Source: Candidatus Zixiibacteriota bacterium (GTDB lineage: Bacteria; SM23-81). Taken from it: 5,244 bases of DNA. Location: positions 1-5,244 of the forward strand of contig DAOVRJ010000178.1 of assembly GCA_030628225.1 (NCBI GenBank), given 5' to 3'. Made by a program: the position numbers and the translations under genes. This document shows positions 89 to 5,244 of this stretch, one piece after another. The notes beneath the pieces are model-generated. The model saw nothing but the letters and a program-made list of their open reading frames with translations. It was not told the origin of the DNA and ran no database searches. The first letter of the stretch is position 1; every line of letters begins with the position of its first letter.

Positions 89-99
89 TTAACTCTTTT
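64..99. repeat. Period-9 tandem repeat, four units of AACTCT(C/T)NN, crossing a stop codon
   Basis: AACTCTC starts at 64, 73 and 82, and AACTCTT at 91, giving an exact 9-base period with two variable bases per unit. The stop codon (TAA on the minus strand, 89-91) and the last two or three codons of the SpoU methyltransferase gene lie inside the array. The repeat therefore overlaps the gene end and may have set where the reading frame closes. Confidence 0.85.
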
Positions 100-628
100 C
101 CCGATACTGCCGCAGCACCTCGAAGACCACGGCCCCGAAGGCCACGGCCACGTTCACCGAGTTCTTGAAACCCCACATGGGAATCTCCACGATCTCGTCG
201 GACATCTCCAGGACCTCCCGGGATACGCCCAGGGCCTCATTGCCCACCACCAGGCAGACGGGGCTGGGATAGGCGATCTGGTGAAAGGGCTTGCTGACAT
301 CGGTGACCTCCAGGCTGATCAGCTTGATTTTCCGCCTCTTCATTTTCTCCACGGCCTCTGCCGTTGTGGGGCAATGCTCCCAGGGCACATAGTCCAGGGC
401 TCCCAGGGCTGTTTTGATGATCTTCGGGTTTGGGGGATGGGCCGTGATCCCGCAGAAAAAGATCTTCTCTATGCGGGCGCAGTCGGCGGTGCGCACGATG
501 GAGCCCACGTTGAAGGCGCTGCGCAGATTGTCCAGGATGGCATAGACGGGATGGCGGGGGAGCTTGCGGAACTCCTCGGGAGAAAGGGGAGAGTCGTTGG
601 TTTTCACCTGAAAATTGGTTTCCATCAT
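89..628 (-). CDS. SpoU/TrmH (SPOUT) family RNA 2'-O-methyltransferase
   Basis: The 179-residue product is a cytoplasmic SAM-dependent RNA methyltransferase of the SpoU class, which methylates ribose 2'-OH groups in tRNA or rRNA using a trefoil-knot fold. The three family motifs are visible: motif 1, NVGSIVRTAD at residues 40-49 with N40 and the catalytic-type R46; motif 2, VVGNEALG at 127-134 with G129, E131 and G134; and motif 3, IPMWGFKNSVNVAVAFG at 149-165, where SVNVAVA forms the knot and SAM site. No separate N-terminal RNA-binding domain is present, as in the small TrmL-like members, so the substrate cannot be named. The ATG at 626-628 overlaps the TGA of the radical SAM gene in an ATGA, which indicates translational coupling; a second ATG follows immediately. 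The ribosome site is weak (GAGTG). The C-terminus runs into a 9-base tandem repeat. The family is secure; the target nucleotide is not. Confidence 0.93.
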   Translation of the reverse strand: MMETNFQVKTNDSPLSPEEFRKLPRHPVYAILDNLRSAFNVGSIVRTADCARIEKIFFCGITAHPPNPKIIKTALGALDYVPWEHCPTTAEAVEKMKRRKIKLISLEVTDVSKPFHQIAYPSPVCLVVGNEALGVSREVLEMSDEIVEIPMWGFKNSVNVAVAFGAVVFEVLRQYREKS

Positions 629-1728
629 GGTTTCACTCGTTCATCTAAAAGCCGGGACAGCCTGGCCATGTTGCCCGGCGACCAGCCCAGGGCCTGGCGC
701 CAGACCAGGTCGCTCTCCATGCACAGGTAGACGAAGACGTCCGGGTCGTGCTCCTTGATCCAGGTGTTCAGCTTGCGGAACATCCGTGTGCGGATAGGTC
801 TGAAATACCGGGGCTTGCCGTCTTTTCCGGGGAAGAGCTCCCCCAGGACGATCTCGCTCTGCGGATGCCGGCGGCGGATGATCTCCTCCAGCTGCGGTGG
901 ATATCTCAGCGCCCCCAGGCTGATCCAGGCGATGGCCTGCGGGTCGACGTGCTGAAAGATGGCCTCCACCACCCGGCGGTAATCCTCCTCCCAGCCCGGG
1001 TAATCGATGAGCGGATCGAAGTGAAAGCCGATCCGGTATCCCGCCCGATAGCAGCGCCGGGCGGCCTGCAGACGCTCTTTGACCGGGGGGGCGCCATGTT
1101 CTTCCTTTCGGACCACCGGCTCAGCGTTAAGGGACCAGGAAACCACCGTGCGCCCGGCGTGCTCAAGGTCCATCAGGTCTTCTACGTTGGTCGTCTTGGT
1201 CTTCAACTCCAGGATGGCGTTGGATTTGTCGGCGAAATAGGGAACCAGTAGCCGGGCGTGCCCAAAGCTGGGGTCCAGGCTGAGGCTGTCGGTTAGCTCG
1301 CCGGTGCCCAGGCGGTAAAATTCGTCCTGGCCGGATGATAGAAAACTGTCCAGCTGGGCCATCAGGTCGTCCAGATTGGCGTAGACCGTCAACAGAGGAA
1401 TGGTCAGATAGCCCTGCAGGATGCAGTAGGTGCAGTCCAGGTCGCAGTTGGTGGCCGCGTTGATGATCCGGTATCCGCAGCAGATATAGTTTTTCGTGCC
1501 CGGGCACCGCTTGATGAAGGGTCCCCGCTGGCGGGCGATGAGCAAGGAGCGTTTTCCGGCCGCGATGGGGTCGGGTTCCCCCCGAAGAGCATCGACGGCC
1601 TGTTGGGGTTGGGAGACTATCTGCACGGGCACCGAGGGCCACCGGTCAAGCAGCTTTCGGGTGAAGGGCAGATCCCGGATGGATCGCTCCACGAAAATCT
1701 TTTGTGGCCGGAAAATCTCGGTACCCAT
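625..1728 (-). CDS. Spore photoproduct lyase-like (SplB family) radical SAM protein
   Basis: The 367-residue product is of about the usual SPL-family length. It has the radical SAM cluster CDLDCTYC, with C95, C99 and C102 in CxxxCxxC spacing, followed by ILQGYL as in SPL relatives. Upstream, RCPGTKNYICCGY (74-86) adds C75, C83 and C84. True SPL uses a 4Fe-4S cluster and SAM to make a 5'-deoxyadenosyl radical that reverses the thymine dimer spore photoproduct; in Bacillus it needs a hydrogen-donor cysteine (Cys141) after the cluster. Here there is no cysteine between residues 103 and 225, and the matching region reads RLGTGELTDSLSLD (139-152). The tyrosine in CTYC is kept, but the residue after the third cluster cysteine is Ile, not Tyr. 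I infer a relative with another substrate or chemistry, possibly still DNA or nucleotide directed. The ATG lies 3 nt after the ParB-like gene, with AAGAG six bases upstream of it; the end overlaps the methyltransferase start. Confidence 0.88.
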   Translation of the reverse strand: MGTEIFRPQKIFVERSIRDLPFTRKLLDRWPSVPVQIVSQPQQAVDALRGEPDPIAAGKRSLLIARQRGPFIKRCPGTKNYICCGYRIINAATNCDLDCTYCILQGYLTIPLLTVYANLDDLMAQLDSFLSSGQDEFYRLGTGELTDSLSLDPSFGHARLLVPYFADKSNAILELKTKTTNVEDLMDLEHAGRTVVSWSLNAEPVVRKEEHGAPPVKERLQAARRCYRAGYRIGFHFDPLIDYPGWEEDYRRVVEAIFQHVDPQAIAWISLGALRYPPQLEEIIRRRHPQSEIVLGELFPGKDGKPRYFRPIRTRMFRKLNTWIKEHDPDVFVYLCMESDLVWRQALGWSPGNMARLSRLLDERVKP

Positions 1729-1731
1729 GGG

Positions 1732-2715
1732 CTACTCTTGATCCCGGAAGGTGATCTCCAGTAATTCGGCCAGAGCAGAGCTCTCGGCCATGGCCGCCAG
1801 AGCCTTTTGGGCAGCGGCCAGCTGCTCCCGGCTGCGAAAGGTGATTGTCAGCCGGTAGTCCTGGCCCTCGAAGAAGGGCGATGCCGTCAGGCTGAGATGA
1901 GCGGGAAGCCGCAGCTTTTTCTTGATCTCCTCGAACTCGTCTGCCGCCCGAGAAAGCCGCGGATAGCGGCGTCTGATCAGCAATTCCCGGACCCTCTTGG
2001 CCCGGATGGGCACCTGGACTTGGGGGTCTTGCACCAGCGATGTGATTTGCGGGTCCCCGAGAAGCTCGTTTATGGAGGTTTTCCCCTTAAGAGACAGGTC
2101 GCGCAGCAGGGACAGGAACTCGCGTTGCCGGTTTTTGCCCAGAACCAGGGCGGTGAGCAGCTTGCCGAAGGCCAGACGATCCTCAGGGGAGAGGGTCAAT
2201 AGTTGCTGGGCCGTGGCGATGGATATTTTGCCGGCTGCCAGATCTTGCTTGATGGGCTCCTCCAGGCGGGCCAGAGACAGATAGAGGTCCAGCGTTTTGG
2301 GATCGGAGCCCAGGCCCAGGGCCGGGAGATGATCTTTGAGCATCTCCTCTCTGCTCAGCCGGAACTGACCGGCCAGCTTGTCTAAGGCCAGGGATTTTTC
2401 CACCACGTTGAGCGAACGGGTGCCCAGGTTCTCGTGCAGCCCCCGGAGAAAGAGCTTCAGCTCGTTTTCCGCGGATGCCAGATGGGCGATGACCTTTTCG
2501 AAACCCAGCGCCTCCAGGACCAGCAGCCGTTTGTACCCGCAGACGATCCGGTACCGGCCGGACCGGGGGATCTTCTGCAAGATGGGTGGCTGCTGGATGC
2601 CCACCCGGGCGATGGATTCTCGCAGCGACTGCAGTTCCGGGGCGTAGGTGATGACCAGGGTGCGGTCGCGGAGATCCACGGCTTCCAGGGGGATCTCCGG
2701 CAGCTGCATTGGCAT
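1732..2715 (-). CDS. ParB/Srx N-terminal domain protein (orphan, KorB/Spo0J-like)
   Basis: The 327-residue product has a ParB-type N-terminal domain at about residues 7-100. SLRESIARVGIQQPPIL (30-46) matches the family's first helix and strand, VCGYKRLLVLEALG (58-71) occupies the GERRxRA nucleotide-binding box, and HENLGTRSLNVVEKSLAL (94-111) occupies the ENxQRxDLNPxEEA box. A helical part with a probable helix-turn-helix follows (115-180), then a basic stretch RAKRVRELLIRRRYPRLSR (238-256) and a C-terminal domain unlike the usual ParB dimer domain. No ParA gene and no parS-like site is seen, so chromosome partition is unlikely; a DNA-bound or nucleotide-binding accessory role to the coupled radical SAM gene is inference. 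I chose ATG at 2713-2715 because the conserved domain begins there and GAAAGG lies seven bases upstream. An alternative GTG at 2749-2751 overlaps the glycosyltransferase stop as GTGA, with GAGG five bases ahead, and would add 12 residues. Confidence 0.85.
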   Translation of the reverse strand: MPMQLPEIPLEAVDLRDRTLVITYAPELQSLRESIARVGIQQPPILQKIPRSGRYRIVCGYKRLLVLEALGFEKVIAHLASAENELKLFLRGLHENLGTRSLNVVEKSLALDKLAGQFRLSREEMLKDHLPALGLGSDPKTLDLYLSLARLEEPIKQDLAAGKISIATAQQLLTLSPEDRLAFGKLLTALVLGKNRQREFLSLLRDLSLKGKTSINELLGDPQITSLVQDPQVQVPIRAKRVRELLIRRRYPRLSRAADEFEEIKKKLRLPAHLSLTASPFFEGQDYRLTITFRSREQLAAAQKALAAMAESSALAELLEITFRDQE

Positions 2716-2747: not shown

Positions 2748-3590
2748 TCACGGCGACCTCGAGTAGTGTGCGGCGATATCGAGAAACTGACCGGCCAGCT
2801 CTTCTTTCCCGCGCTTGCGGCAGCCGTTGGCCAGGATCTGGCACTTCTGTTGCAGACAGGCGATGGCCGTCTTGCGGATGTGATCATCCAAGTCCCGGTG
2901 GTCCAGCAATTTGCGGATCGCCTGCACCCGGTACCGGTCCAGGCCCCAGTGTTTTTTGGAAAGCTGATCGGCGTGCCCCCCTCTTTTGACGATCAGGGGC
3001 CGGTCGATGAGCATGATCGGATAGTGCAGGCCGATGCGCAGCCACAGGTCGTAGTCCTCGCAGGCGGGCAGTGATTCGTCGAACAGGCCCACCCGGCAAA
3101 AAACCTCCCGGGCGATGAGCACAGAGGAGGGGCTGACGATGCACAGGGGCAGCATCTTCTCCAGTATCCAGCCGGAGTGCTTGCCATGCTTCTTGCGGGG
3201 GTTGACCCGCACCCCCCGGCGGATCCAGATCTCCTCGGTGTAGCAGACCTTGACCGTATGATCGCGCTCCACCAGGTCCATCTGGGCGGCCAGTTTGTTT
3301 TCTTTCCACAGATCGTCGGAATCCAGAAAGGCCAGATAGCGTCCCCTGGCCCGGCGGATCCCGGCATTCCGGGCGCTGCTGGCTCCGCGGTTGTCCTGAC
3401 CATACAGGCGGATGCGGTCCCCGTAGGGAGCCAGCCGGTCGACGGTGTCGTCAGTGGAGCCGTCGTCGATGACCAGCAGCTCGAGATCGGTGTAGCTCTG
3501 GGCCAGCACCGAGTCAACCGCCTCCGTTACCACGTGGGCCCGGTTGTAGGTGGGGATGACGACGCTGACCGTGGGAGTTTTCGGTGGAAT
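2748..3590 (-). CDS. Family 2 glycosyltransferase (GT-A fold), probable ATT start
   Basis: The 280-residue product transfers a sugar from a nucleotide-sugar donor, most likely in cell-surface polysaccharide or lipopolysaccharide synthesis at the inner face of the membrane; no membrane segment is seen. Numbered from the ATT, the GT-A landmarks are VSVVIPTYNRA (8-18, first beta strand and donor site), VIDDGSTDDT (40-49), the metal-binding DXD-type FLDSDDLW (88-95), and ACEDYDLWLR (176-185), whose ED pair is the likely catalytic base. Donor and acceptor cannot be told. The start is unusual: the first in-frame GTG (3531-3533) would cut off the essential first strand, and the frame is open up to a stop at 3651-3653 with no ATG, GTG or TTG before that strand. 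The in-frame ATT at 3588-3590 lies six bases after GGAGGT and gives a normal N-terminus. A start mutation or a one-base frameshift near 3578-3581 are the alternatives. First gene of the four-gene set. Confidence 0.88.
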   Translation of the reverse strand: MPPKTPTVSVVIPTYNRAHVVTEAVDSVLAQSYTDLELLVIDDGSTDDTVDRLAPYGDRIRLYGQDNRGASSARNAGIRRARGRYLAFLDSDDLWKENKLAAQMDLVERDHTVKVCYTEEIWIRRGVRVNPRKKHGKHSGWILEKMLPLCIVSPSSVLIAREVFCRVGLFDESLPACEDYDLWLRIGLHYPIMLIDRPLIVKRGGHADQLSKKHWGLDRYRVQAIRKLLDHRDLDDHIRKTAIACLQQKCQILANGCRKRGKEELAGQFLDIAAHYSRSP

Positions 3591-3893: not shown

Positions 3894-5244
3894 TCAGTCC
3901 AACCGAACTCCCGCCTCCCGGTACAGCCCCTCCAGCTCGGCGATCTTATCCTCGATGAGCCGGAAACAATCGCTCAAAAGCCCTCGGTCTCCGATGTCCA
4001 GTCCCAGAGTCTCCTGGATCATCTGCGGCGCAGGACGATCGAAGCTGTGGCCGACCATCCGCAGATAGTTATCCACGAACCGGGGATTTTTCTGCAGTTC
4101 CTGGAGGACCTTCAGGGACAGGGCACTGGAGATCACATAGTTCACGTTGTACATGGGCACGGTGTAAAAGTGATGGATCACGTTCCAGATTCCCTGGTAC
4201 TCGGGATGGATCTGGTAGTAGACGTTGTACTTACTGCCCATTTCCCGGCAGAGGGCGTCGAGCTCATCGGCCGTCTTCAGCTGATCGGCGGCCACCTGCT
4301 CATAAATGGTGGCTTCCAGGTCGGCGATGAAGTTGAGCGACAGAACGCGGGTGGCTTTTTTCAGAAACTCCTCCAGGAAGTAGATCTTCATCTGCAGATC
4401 CCCGGCCCCTCTATACAGATGGTCGATTAGCAGAAGCTCGTTCAGGATGGCCACGGTCTCGGTGACGTAGTTGGGGCCATCGTAATAAAGGGGCTCAGTT
4501 CCGGCATTGGCCAGGATCTTGTAATGAACGGCATGCCCGGCCTCGTGGGCCATGGTAGTTACACCCCCCAGGTATCCCTCATAGGCAAAGCAGTAAAACT
4601 GCCATGCGGCACCGGCATATCCGTAGGCGAAGGCCCCGGGAGTGCGGTTCTCGCCGGACACCACGTCCAGCCGCCCCTGATGGGGATCGAGCAGGCTGGC
4701 CAGCTCGTCGTGATACTCCTGGCCCAGAGGGGCCAGGGCCTCCATGATCAGATCTGTGGCCTGGCGGATATCCCAGCGGGGCTTCTCAAACCCCCTGGGC
4801 ACCACCGACCTGTCCCAGGTGTACACGGTGTCGTAGCCGGTGGCCGCTTTGATGCCCTTCTGATGGAGAAGCTGAAATTTCTTGTTCAGCCCGGCGTGCT
4901 CGGCGATCTGGCCGTAGAGGTTGTTCACCTGGTCGTAGGTGAGGAACAGGTTGAAGTATTTCGACTCGGCGTAGTTCTGGAACCCGCGCATCCGGGCCAG
5001 CTTGTTTTTCGTCCGCACGCTTTTTTGGAGGGCGAAGGCGTAGATGTCGCGGTGGGTGTTCATGTTGCGGAAATACCCCTGCCAGGTATCCTGGCGAATT
5101 ACCCTGCTGGTGTCGTTGATCAGGCGGGAGTAGTTCAGGTTCACGTTCAGGGTCTCGCCCGGCACAGGAACCAGGTCTGGAAACTGGGTGCGATCGACGC
5201 ATTTCTGATAGAGCTCCTCCACCCAGGGGTTCAGGTAGGGGTCC
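3894..5244 (-). CDS. M3 family zinc metallopeptidase (oligoendopeptidase F-like), 5' end outside window
   Basis: This is the C-terminal part, 449 visible codons plus stop, of a thermolysin-type zinc peptidase of family M3, which cleaves short peptides, usually in the cytoplasm. The active site is HEAGH (bases 4533-4547), with two zinc-binding histidines and the catalytic glutamate. A glutamate exactly 25 residues after the second histidine (in YVTETVAILNE) fits the third zinc ligand spacing of M3 enzymes. Further on, HHFYTVPMYNVNY (about 120 residues after HEAGH) holds the His and Tyr residues that bind substrate in the family. The frame stays open through the last complete codon at the right edge (DPYLNPW precedes the GTG at 5220-5222, which is therefore internal). 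Family members are usually about 550-600 residues, so roughly 100-150 are missing. Whether a signal peptide exists cannot be seen. It is separated from the downstream operon by 303 bases and is probably a separate transcription unit. Confidence 0.93.
   Translation of the reverse strand, partial: DPYLNPWVEELYQKCVDRTQFPDLVPVPGETLNVNLNYSRLINDTSRVIRQDTWQGYFRNMNTHRDIYAFALQKSVRTKNKLARMRGFQNYAESKYFNLFLTYDQVNNLYGQIAEHAGLNKKFQLLHQKGIKAATGYDTVYTWDRSVVPRGFEKPRWDIRQATDLIMEALAPLGQEYHDELASLLDPHQGRLDVVSGENRTPGAFAYGYAGAAWQFYCFAYEGYLGGVTTMAHEAGHAVHYKILANAGTEPLYYDGPNYVTETVAILNELLLIDHLYRGAGDLQMKIYFLEEFLKKATRVLSLNFIADLEATIYEQVAADQLKTADELDALCREMGSKYNVYYQIHPEYQGIWNVIHHFYTVPMYNVNYVISSALSLKVLQELQKNPRFVDNYLRMVGHSFDRPAPQMIQETLGLDIGDRGLLSDCFRLIEDKIAELEGLYREAGVRLD

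Follow-up and report, generated by a model that had tools for sequence, protein, structure and literature searches.

An SPL-like radical SAM enzyme (rSAM), the C-terminal domain of a ParB-like partner protein and a dedicated GT2 glycosyltransferase, often joined by a PNP-superfamily nucleosidase, probably form a conserved enzyme module of three to four components, for which biosynthesis or modification is the most likely role. Neither spore-photoproduct repair nor chromosome partitioning is likely to be its function. The parts are tied to one another across many bacterial phyla by operons, by co-occurrence and by gene fusions.

An orphan ParB-like gene beside an SPL-like radical SAM gene

The window, i.e. 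the whole stretch of DNA analysed, is a complete contig of 5,244 bp (G000:C10) from a 2.34 Mb metagenome-assembled genome. Among named relatives, candidate division Zixibacteria SM23_81 is the nearest, with 76% identity in the rSAM. The contig carries five genes, all on the minus strand, which encode, in order, a PepF-like M3 peptidase truncated by the contig end, the GT2 glycosyltransferase (2748..3572), the ParB-like protein of 327 aa (1732..2715), the rSAM of 367 aa (625..1728) and a SpoU/TrmH-type RNA methyltransferase (89..628). AAAGAAAGG precedes the start codon of the ParB-like gene, an ATG at 2715. The stop codon of this gene occupies positions 1732-1734, leaving 3 nt to the ATG of the rSAM gene at 1728, and the rSAM stop overlaps the methyltransferase ATG by 4 nt; the coordinates thus confirm the close spacing reported on both sides of the rSAM gene in a first-pass annotation of the sequence. 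The absence of ParA and parS, also remarked upon there, holds as well: no parA is present among the genes of the window, and a window search at three mismatches found no parS-like site. Since the housekeeping rsmG-parA-parB cluster lies on a separate contig of the same genome (G000:C83), the window gene represents an extra, orphan ParB paralogue.

The row PepF-GT2-ParB-rSAM-SpoU is intact in the window and in its nearest relative (G001), as it could be if the arrangement were inherited synteny only, with genes that work separately. Outside the family of the window, however, GT2, ParB and rSAM stay while PepF and SpoU do not; all three are retained even in genomes where they are unlinked, and fusions exist. 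Synteny as a general explanation is refuted by the survey described below, and we regard it as highly improbable. The SpoU methyltransferase and PepF, conserved in the nearest family only, were rejected as module members. A defence system was likewise rejected, with no PADLOC match, as was a phage origin, the PHROG matches being merely general ParB, GT and rSAM ones.

The pair recurs in many bacterial phyla

A named survey of 84,980 genomes returned the best 80 rSAM loci, which were distributed over Zixibacteria, KSB1, Calditrichota, Desulfobacterota, Aminicenantes, Acidobacteria, Nitrospirae, Rokubacteria, Omnitrophota and others. Most of these 80 loci carry a same-strand ParB-family gene upstream, often overlapping the rSAM start. 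One cultured host, Desulfacinum infernum DSM 9756 (L125), is among the surveyed loci; GT2 does not adjoin the genes at this locus. A second sample, drawn from across the domain, comprised 386 genomes; the rSAM was present in 122 at a threshold of E<=1e-25 and the full-length ParB family in 44, and 43 of these 44 genomes also had the rSAM (Fisher 2.6e-23).

Adjacency was surveyed in the DNA around the rSAM in 69 genomes, namely those with the closest homologues, few of the more distant 44 rSAM genomes being included. In 45 genomes, from 37 families, the ParB-family partner lay immediately upstream; it was fused in two and divergent in one, and in the remainder it was elsewhere (14 genomes), at a contig edge (1) or not found (6). 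Three of the last seven genomes (G136, G273 and G141) carry a GT2-ParB pair elsewhere, which brings the elsewhere total to 17. In some distant genomes the partners are weak, coming from an iterated profile and resting partly on position. The proposal that the ParB-like protein and the SPL-like rSAM form a real module without ParA is therefore borne out by the survey, far above chance: adjacency extends well past one or two close relatives, and co-occurrence persists even where the genes are unlinked. The gene order GT2-ParB-rSAM is shared by the window and many phyla. Tree distances of ParB, rSAM and GT2 correlate with r of 0.65-0.74, a correlation that may merely reflect shared organismal history.

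A dedicated GT2 and, often, a nucleosidase accompany the pair

The first-pass annotation had overlooked two further components. The dedicated GT2 at 2748-3572 is the third component of the module. Upstream of ParB it is conserved at 46-75% identity across phyla, and it forms a distinct subfamily with the signature W-[IF]-R-x-G-x-R-V-N-P-x-K-K-H. This subfamily was found, as a single copy per genome, in 76 of the 386 genomes of the second sample; 71 of the 76 contain the rSAM, even when the genes are unlinked (Fisher 1.1e-37), and co-occurrence of ParB with GT2 in the same sample gave a Fisher value of 1.9e-20. The GT2 gene adjoins ParB while the rSAM sits elsewhere at four loci (L037, L190, L192 and L200), and adjoins the rSAM without ParB at three (L068, L091 and L124). 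At L206 a GT4-type glycosyltransferase replaces GT2 beside the ParB gene. The genome neighbourhoods of unlinked GT2 genes revealed no further common partner.

The second overlooked component, which recurs often, is a nucleosidase of the PNP/UDP phosphorylase superfamily (PF01048), whose gene lies next to the module in many lineages. Some 120 PF01048 genes are present in 48 module genomes, and in 14 of the 48 the distance from one of them to a module gene is about 5 kb or less, compared to 0.5-0.9 expected (Poisson ~1e-12). PNP was also the commonest family among 121 operonic neighbours scanned, with 11 matches against 4 for the next family. At L160 and L162 the genes form a four-gene row, PNP-GT2-partner-rSAM, with overlapping ends, and sequence inspection placed an MTA-phosphorylase-like gene just upstream of the rSAM at L176 and L180. 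Several subfamilies are represented among the PNP genes, and the locus lacks PNP in most genomes, the window included; the window genome has a single PF01048 gene, unlinked to the module locus.

Gene fusions jointly connect all four proteins. The C-terminal part of the ParB-like protein is fused to the rSAM at L166/L203 and L183/L204, and rSAM reading frames of 447-479 aa occur in G256 and G333, from the same two families as the L166 and L183 fusions. L086 is a fusion of the same kind at a contig edge. A PNP gene is fused to GT2 at L205 and to the ParB C-terminus at L235, directly upstream of that locus's own rSAM, although the C-terminal part of the latter fusion is weak (12-16 bits).

The radical SAM enzyme has an SPL-type fold with an altered active site

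The window rSAM scores 120 bits with PF20903 (SPL) and 125.5 bits with TIGR04070, below the equivalog cut-off of 400. A model of the L086 orthologue, built from an alignment that included the window protein, matched 4fhf with Z 35.6 and 2.1 Å over 322 residues; the next-best family, MqnE, reached Z 14.7. Compared to SPL (SplB, PF20903, TIGR04070; 4fhd/4fhf), the fold, the CxxxCxxC motif at residues 95-102, the Y96 equivalent Y101 and the K178/R307/Y308 set are alike, as is a cysteine at the C74/S76 position. Among 32 relatives C95/C99/C102 are invariant, together with C75, Y101, E144, D147, K178, R307, Y308 and C336, and C83/C84 are nearly so. C83/C84 and C336 are extra cysteines relative to SPL and might hold a second cluster; the extra cysteines might also serve a different chemistry. 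The module rSAM also differs from SPL in having a dedicated partner, a GT2 and often a nucleosidase.

Two further differences concern catalytic residues. The role of C140 in SPL has been described (PMC3742179); at this Bacillus-type H-donor position, C140(Gt)/C141(Bs), all 32 relatives carry Glu (E144). The position of SPL Y98 (residue 103) is Ile, Val, Phe or Ala in all 32, and never Tyr. In the SPL of Clostridium acetobutylicum, however, the H donor is C74 (PMC5368176). C75, present in 32/32 relatives, aligns with the S76C position of 4rh0 (Geobacillus S76), and C. acetobutylicum C74 would correspond to this same position. Given C74 and the invariant C75, it is unsafe to conclude from the C140-to-Glu change that the H donor is lost, and an SPL-like return of the H atom is still conceivable.

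These features bear on the possibility that the module repairs DNA, with the rSAM acting as a photolyase-like enzyme on the thymine photoproduct or another lesion and the ParB-like protein as a clamp, gated by CTP, for loading this enzyme onto DNA. The SPL fold and the invariant cysteine aligned with C74 would suit such a role, and SplB-like rSAMs are known from SOS-type operons (PMC3765255), but the loss of Y98 and the invariant Glu in place of C140 speak against it. No repair genes recur among the 121 operonic neighbours scanned. The SOS/repair operons with SplB-like rSAMs (DUF4130, ImuB-C) resemble the module in that a dedicated partner gene accompanies an SPL-like rSAM; their partner families are different, and the module has GT2 and the nucleosidase, not repair polymerases or glycosylases.

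The C-terminal domain is the constant part of the rSAM partner

The ParB-like protein of the window matches PF17762 (HTH_ParB) with 25.2 bits, above the cut-off of 22.6, PF02195 (ParB_N) with 23.4 bits, just below the cut-off, and TIGR00180 with 40.9 bits. An AlphaFold2 model with a mean pLDDT of 95 shows three parts: a CTPase fold (residues ~1-100), an HTH part (~101-208) and a novel C-terminal domain (~209-327). In structure comparison, residues 1-208 resemble ParB, KorB and Noc with Z of about 10-12, and the N-terminal fold alone also resembles SerK and sulfiredoxin. In the GxxR box G60 is present in 55/55 relatives and R63 in 54/55, and the EN...R box is mostly kept; with both motifs largely conserved, NTP binding by the ParB part is plausible. 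Which nucleotide a ParB-CTPase fold binds is not predictable from sequence (PMC12704722). The PF17762 HTH was matched at 0.01 by only 10 of the 55 relatives.

The C-terminal domain, encoded at 1735..2091 on the minus strand and carrying the motifs R250-Y-P252 and F282-E283 (RYP and FFEG), matched no Pfam model, and comparison of the full-length model found no PDB entry covering the region 209-327. Partners at L153, L160 and L162 consist of this domain only (171-182 aa), and other partners have an unrecognisable N-terminal part. We conclude that the C-terminal domain is the constant part of the rSAM partners, to which the ParB CTPase/HTH part is an optional addition. The first-pass annotation had suggested that the ParB-like protein may load the rSAM onto DNA. 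This is not supported as the core function, since the C-terminal domain, the conserved element beside the rSAM, occurs in short proteins without the ParB part, or fused to the rSAM (L166, L183) or to PNP (L235); a nucleic-acid substrate is still conceivable. In the model of the L086 fusion this domain was predicted with low confidence, and we therefore claim no interface from that model.

The architecture of the partners also bears on DNA repair. The ParB CTPase and HTH folds are retained in most partners, which favours repair, but they are missing or unrecognisable in many. Direct reversal of a lesion leaves the dedicated GT2 and the nucleosidase without a role; with a module that includes them, simple DNA repair or partitioning fits poorly, and we consider the repair reading unlikely.

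Comparison with known systems

ParB/Noc/KorB clamps and orphan ParB-like proteins (PMC12704722) share with the window protein the CTPase fold, the GxxR and EN...R boxes and a ParB-type HTH. Unlike the clamps, the window protein has neither a ParA partner nor a ParA-binding motif, has another C-terminal domain and stands in an operon with an rSAM and a GT2. The words "radical" and "photoproduct" are both absent from the main text of the 2025 survey of ParB-CTPase folds (PMC12704722). A combination of rSAM, PNP-superfamily nucleosidase and GT2 in one pathway is found in the hopanoid HpnH-HpnG-HpnI pathway, with a parallel in menaquinone MqnE-MqnB (PMC12583986), but the hopanoid rSAM belongs to another family and the ParB-like partner occurs only in the module. 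The hopanoid pathway itself was rejected: HpnH (TIGR03470) exceeded its cut-off in only 4 of the 38 module genomes and was not among the matches of the window rSAM. Neither the ParB-like protein nor the rSAM reached an NCBIfam equivalog cut-off, and the open-licence literature and curated family models searched contained no description of the ParB, rSAM and GT2 combination. The individual proteins belong to known superfamilies; the set of parts appears to be new, as no known kind of system combines them.

A proposed pathway

We propose that the partner uses its C-terminal domain to bind the rSAM and to recognise or present the substrate of that enzyme, and that the ParB CTPase/HTH part, where present, would add nucleotide-controlled regulation or docking. 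The rSAM may act on a nucleotide- or nucleoside-containing substrate, since K178, R307, Y308 and D147, which align with the SPL pocket, are kept. Its product would then be glycosylated by GT2. The nucleosidase could remove adenine from a 5'-deoxyadenosyl adduct, much as MqnB does after MqnE, or from 5'-deoxyadenosine formed as an inhibitory by-product. HpnG acts after HpnH in trimming an adenosyl adduct (PMC12583986), and 5'-deoxyadenosine inhibits radical SAM enzymes (PMC8102628). A more specific version, which we put forward as tentative, is that the SPL-fold rSAM is controlled by an NTP-switch adaptor derived from ParB. The enzyme would add the 5'-deoxyadenosyl radical to a nucleotide-containing substrate, or rearrange that substrate; the nucleosidase would trim the adenine and GT2 would glycosylate, giving a modified nucleoside, cofactor or lipid.

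In a different scheme, the rSAM and GT2 would jointly produce a glycosylated nucleoside or base within tRNA or DNA, under the guidance of the ParB-like protein. A GT2-family enzyme in animals glycosylates tRNA queuosine, and the SPL-type pocket residues together with the ParB and HTH folds suggest polynucleotide binding. All 38 module genomes tested have queA, but so do 57 of 60 controls, and queA is therefore uninformative. No module protein comes from a known tRNA or DNA modification family, and the nucleosidase is left unexplained; we consider such hypermodification rather doubtful.

The rSAM risks being labelled a DNA photolyase and its partner a chromosome-partition protein, and both labels are probably misleading. 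A large SPL-like branch occurs in bacteria that are not known to sporulate, and its function becomes testable in the cultured Desulfacinum infernum. In this branch the ParB CTPase fold is found attached to radical chemistry, and, if the proposed pathway is true, this would be the first use of the fold as the partner of a radical enzyme.

The genes for a SpoU methyltransferase (positions 89–628) and PepF (positions 3894–5243), which flank the module in the window, were considered as further module members and rejected. Their placement beside the module is conserved only in the nearest relative, a member of the same family (locus L036, genome G001), and therefore reflects local synteny outside the module.

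The Aminicenantes loci L077, L082, L087, L093, L103, L109, L113 and L122 have a PF01048 (AMP nucleosidase/PNP-like) gene upstream of the ParB–radical SAM pair, in divergent orientation; in Aminicenantes the pair also adjoins a fixed ExbB/ExbD/TonB-like cluster. A PF01048 gene is likewise divergently upstream of the pair at L072 and L094. At L176 (genome G136) and L180 (genome G273), the radical SAM gene is preceded, after a gap of about 3 nt, by a gene that on inspection looks MTA-phosphorylase-like; both genomes carry the GT2–ParB pair on a separate contig (L238, L239).

At positions 5530–6687 of locus L206, a GT4-type glycosyltransferase gene overlaps the 5' end of the ParB-like gene. The GT2 subfamily is absent from the carrier genome, G091, and the GT4 gene is a possible non-homologous replacement for it. 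At L045 (1650–2628), a gene for a YacP-like protein with an NYN domain (PF05991, 96 bits) is overlapped by that of a ParB relative consisting of the C-terminal domain only. No SPL-like radical SAM gene was found in this genome, G046, at E<=1e-25, and the domain is possibly used differently there.

The window's radical SAM protein has conserved cysteines beyond the radical SAM motif at residues 75, 83, 84 and 336. When aligned with Geobacillus SPL, C83, C84 and C336 lack a counterpart; these three could be ligands of an auxiliary iron-sulphur cluster.
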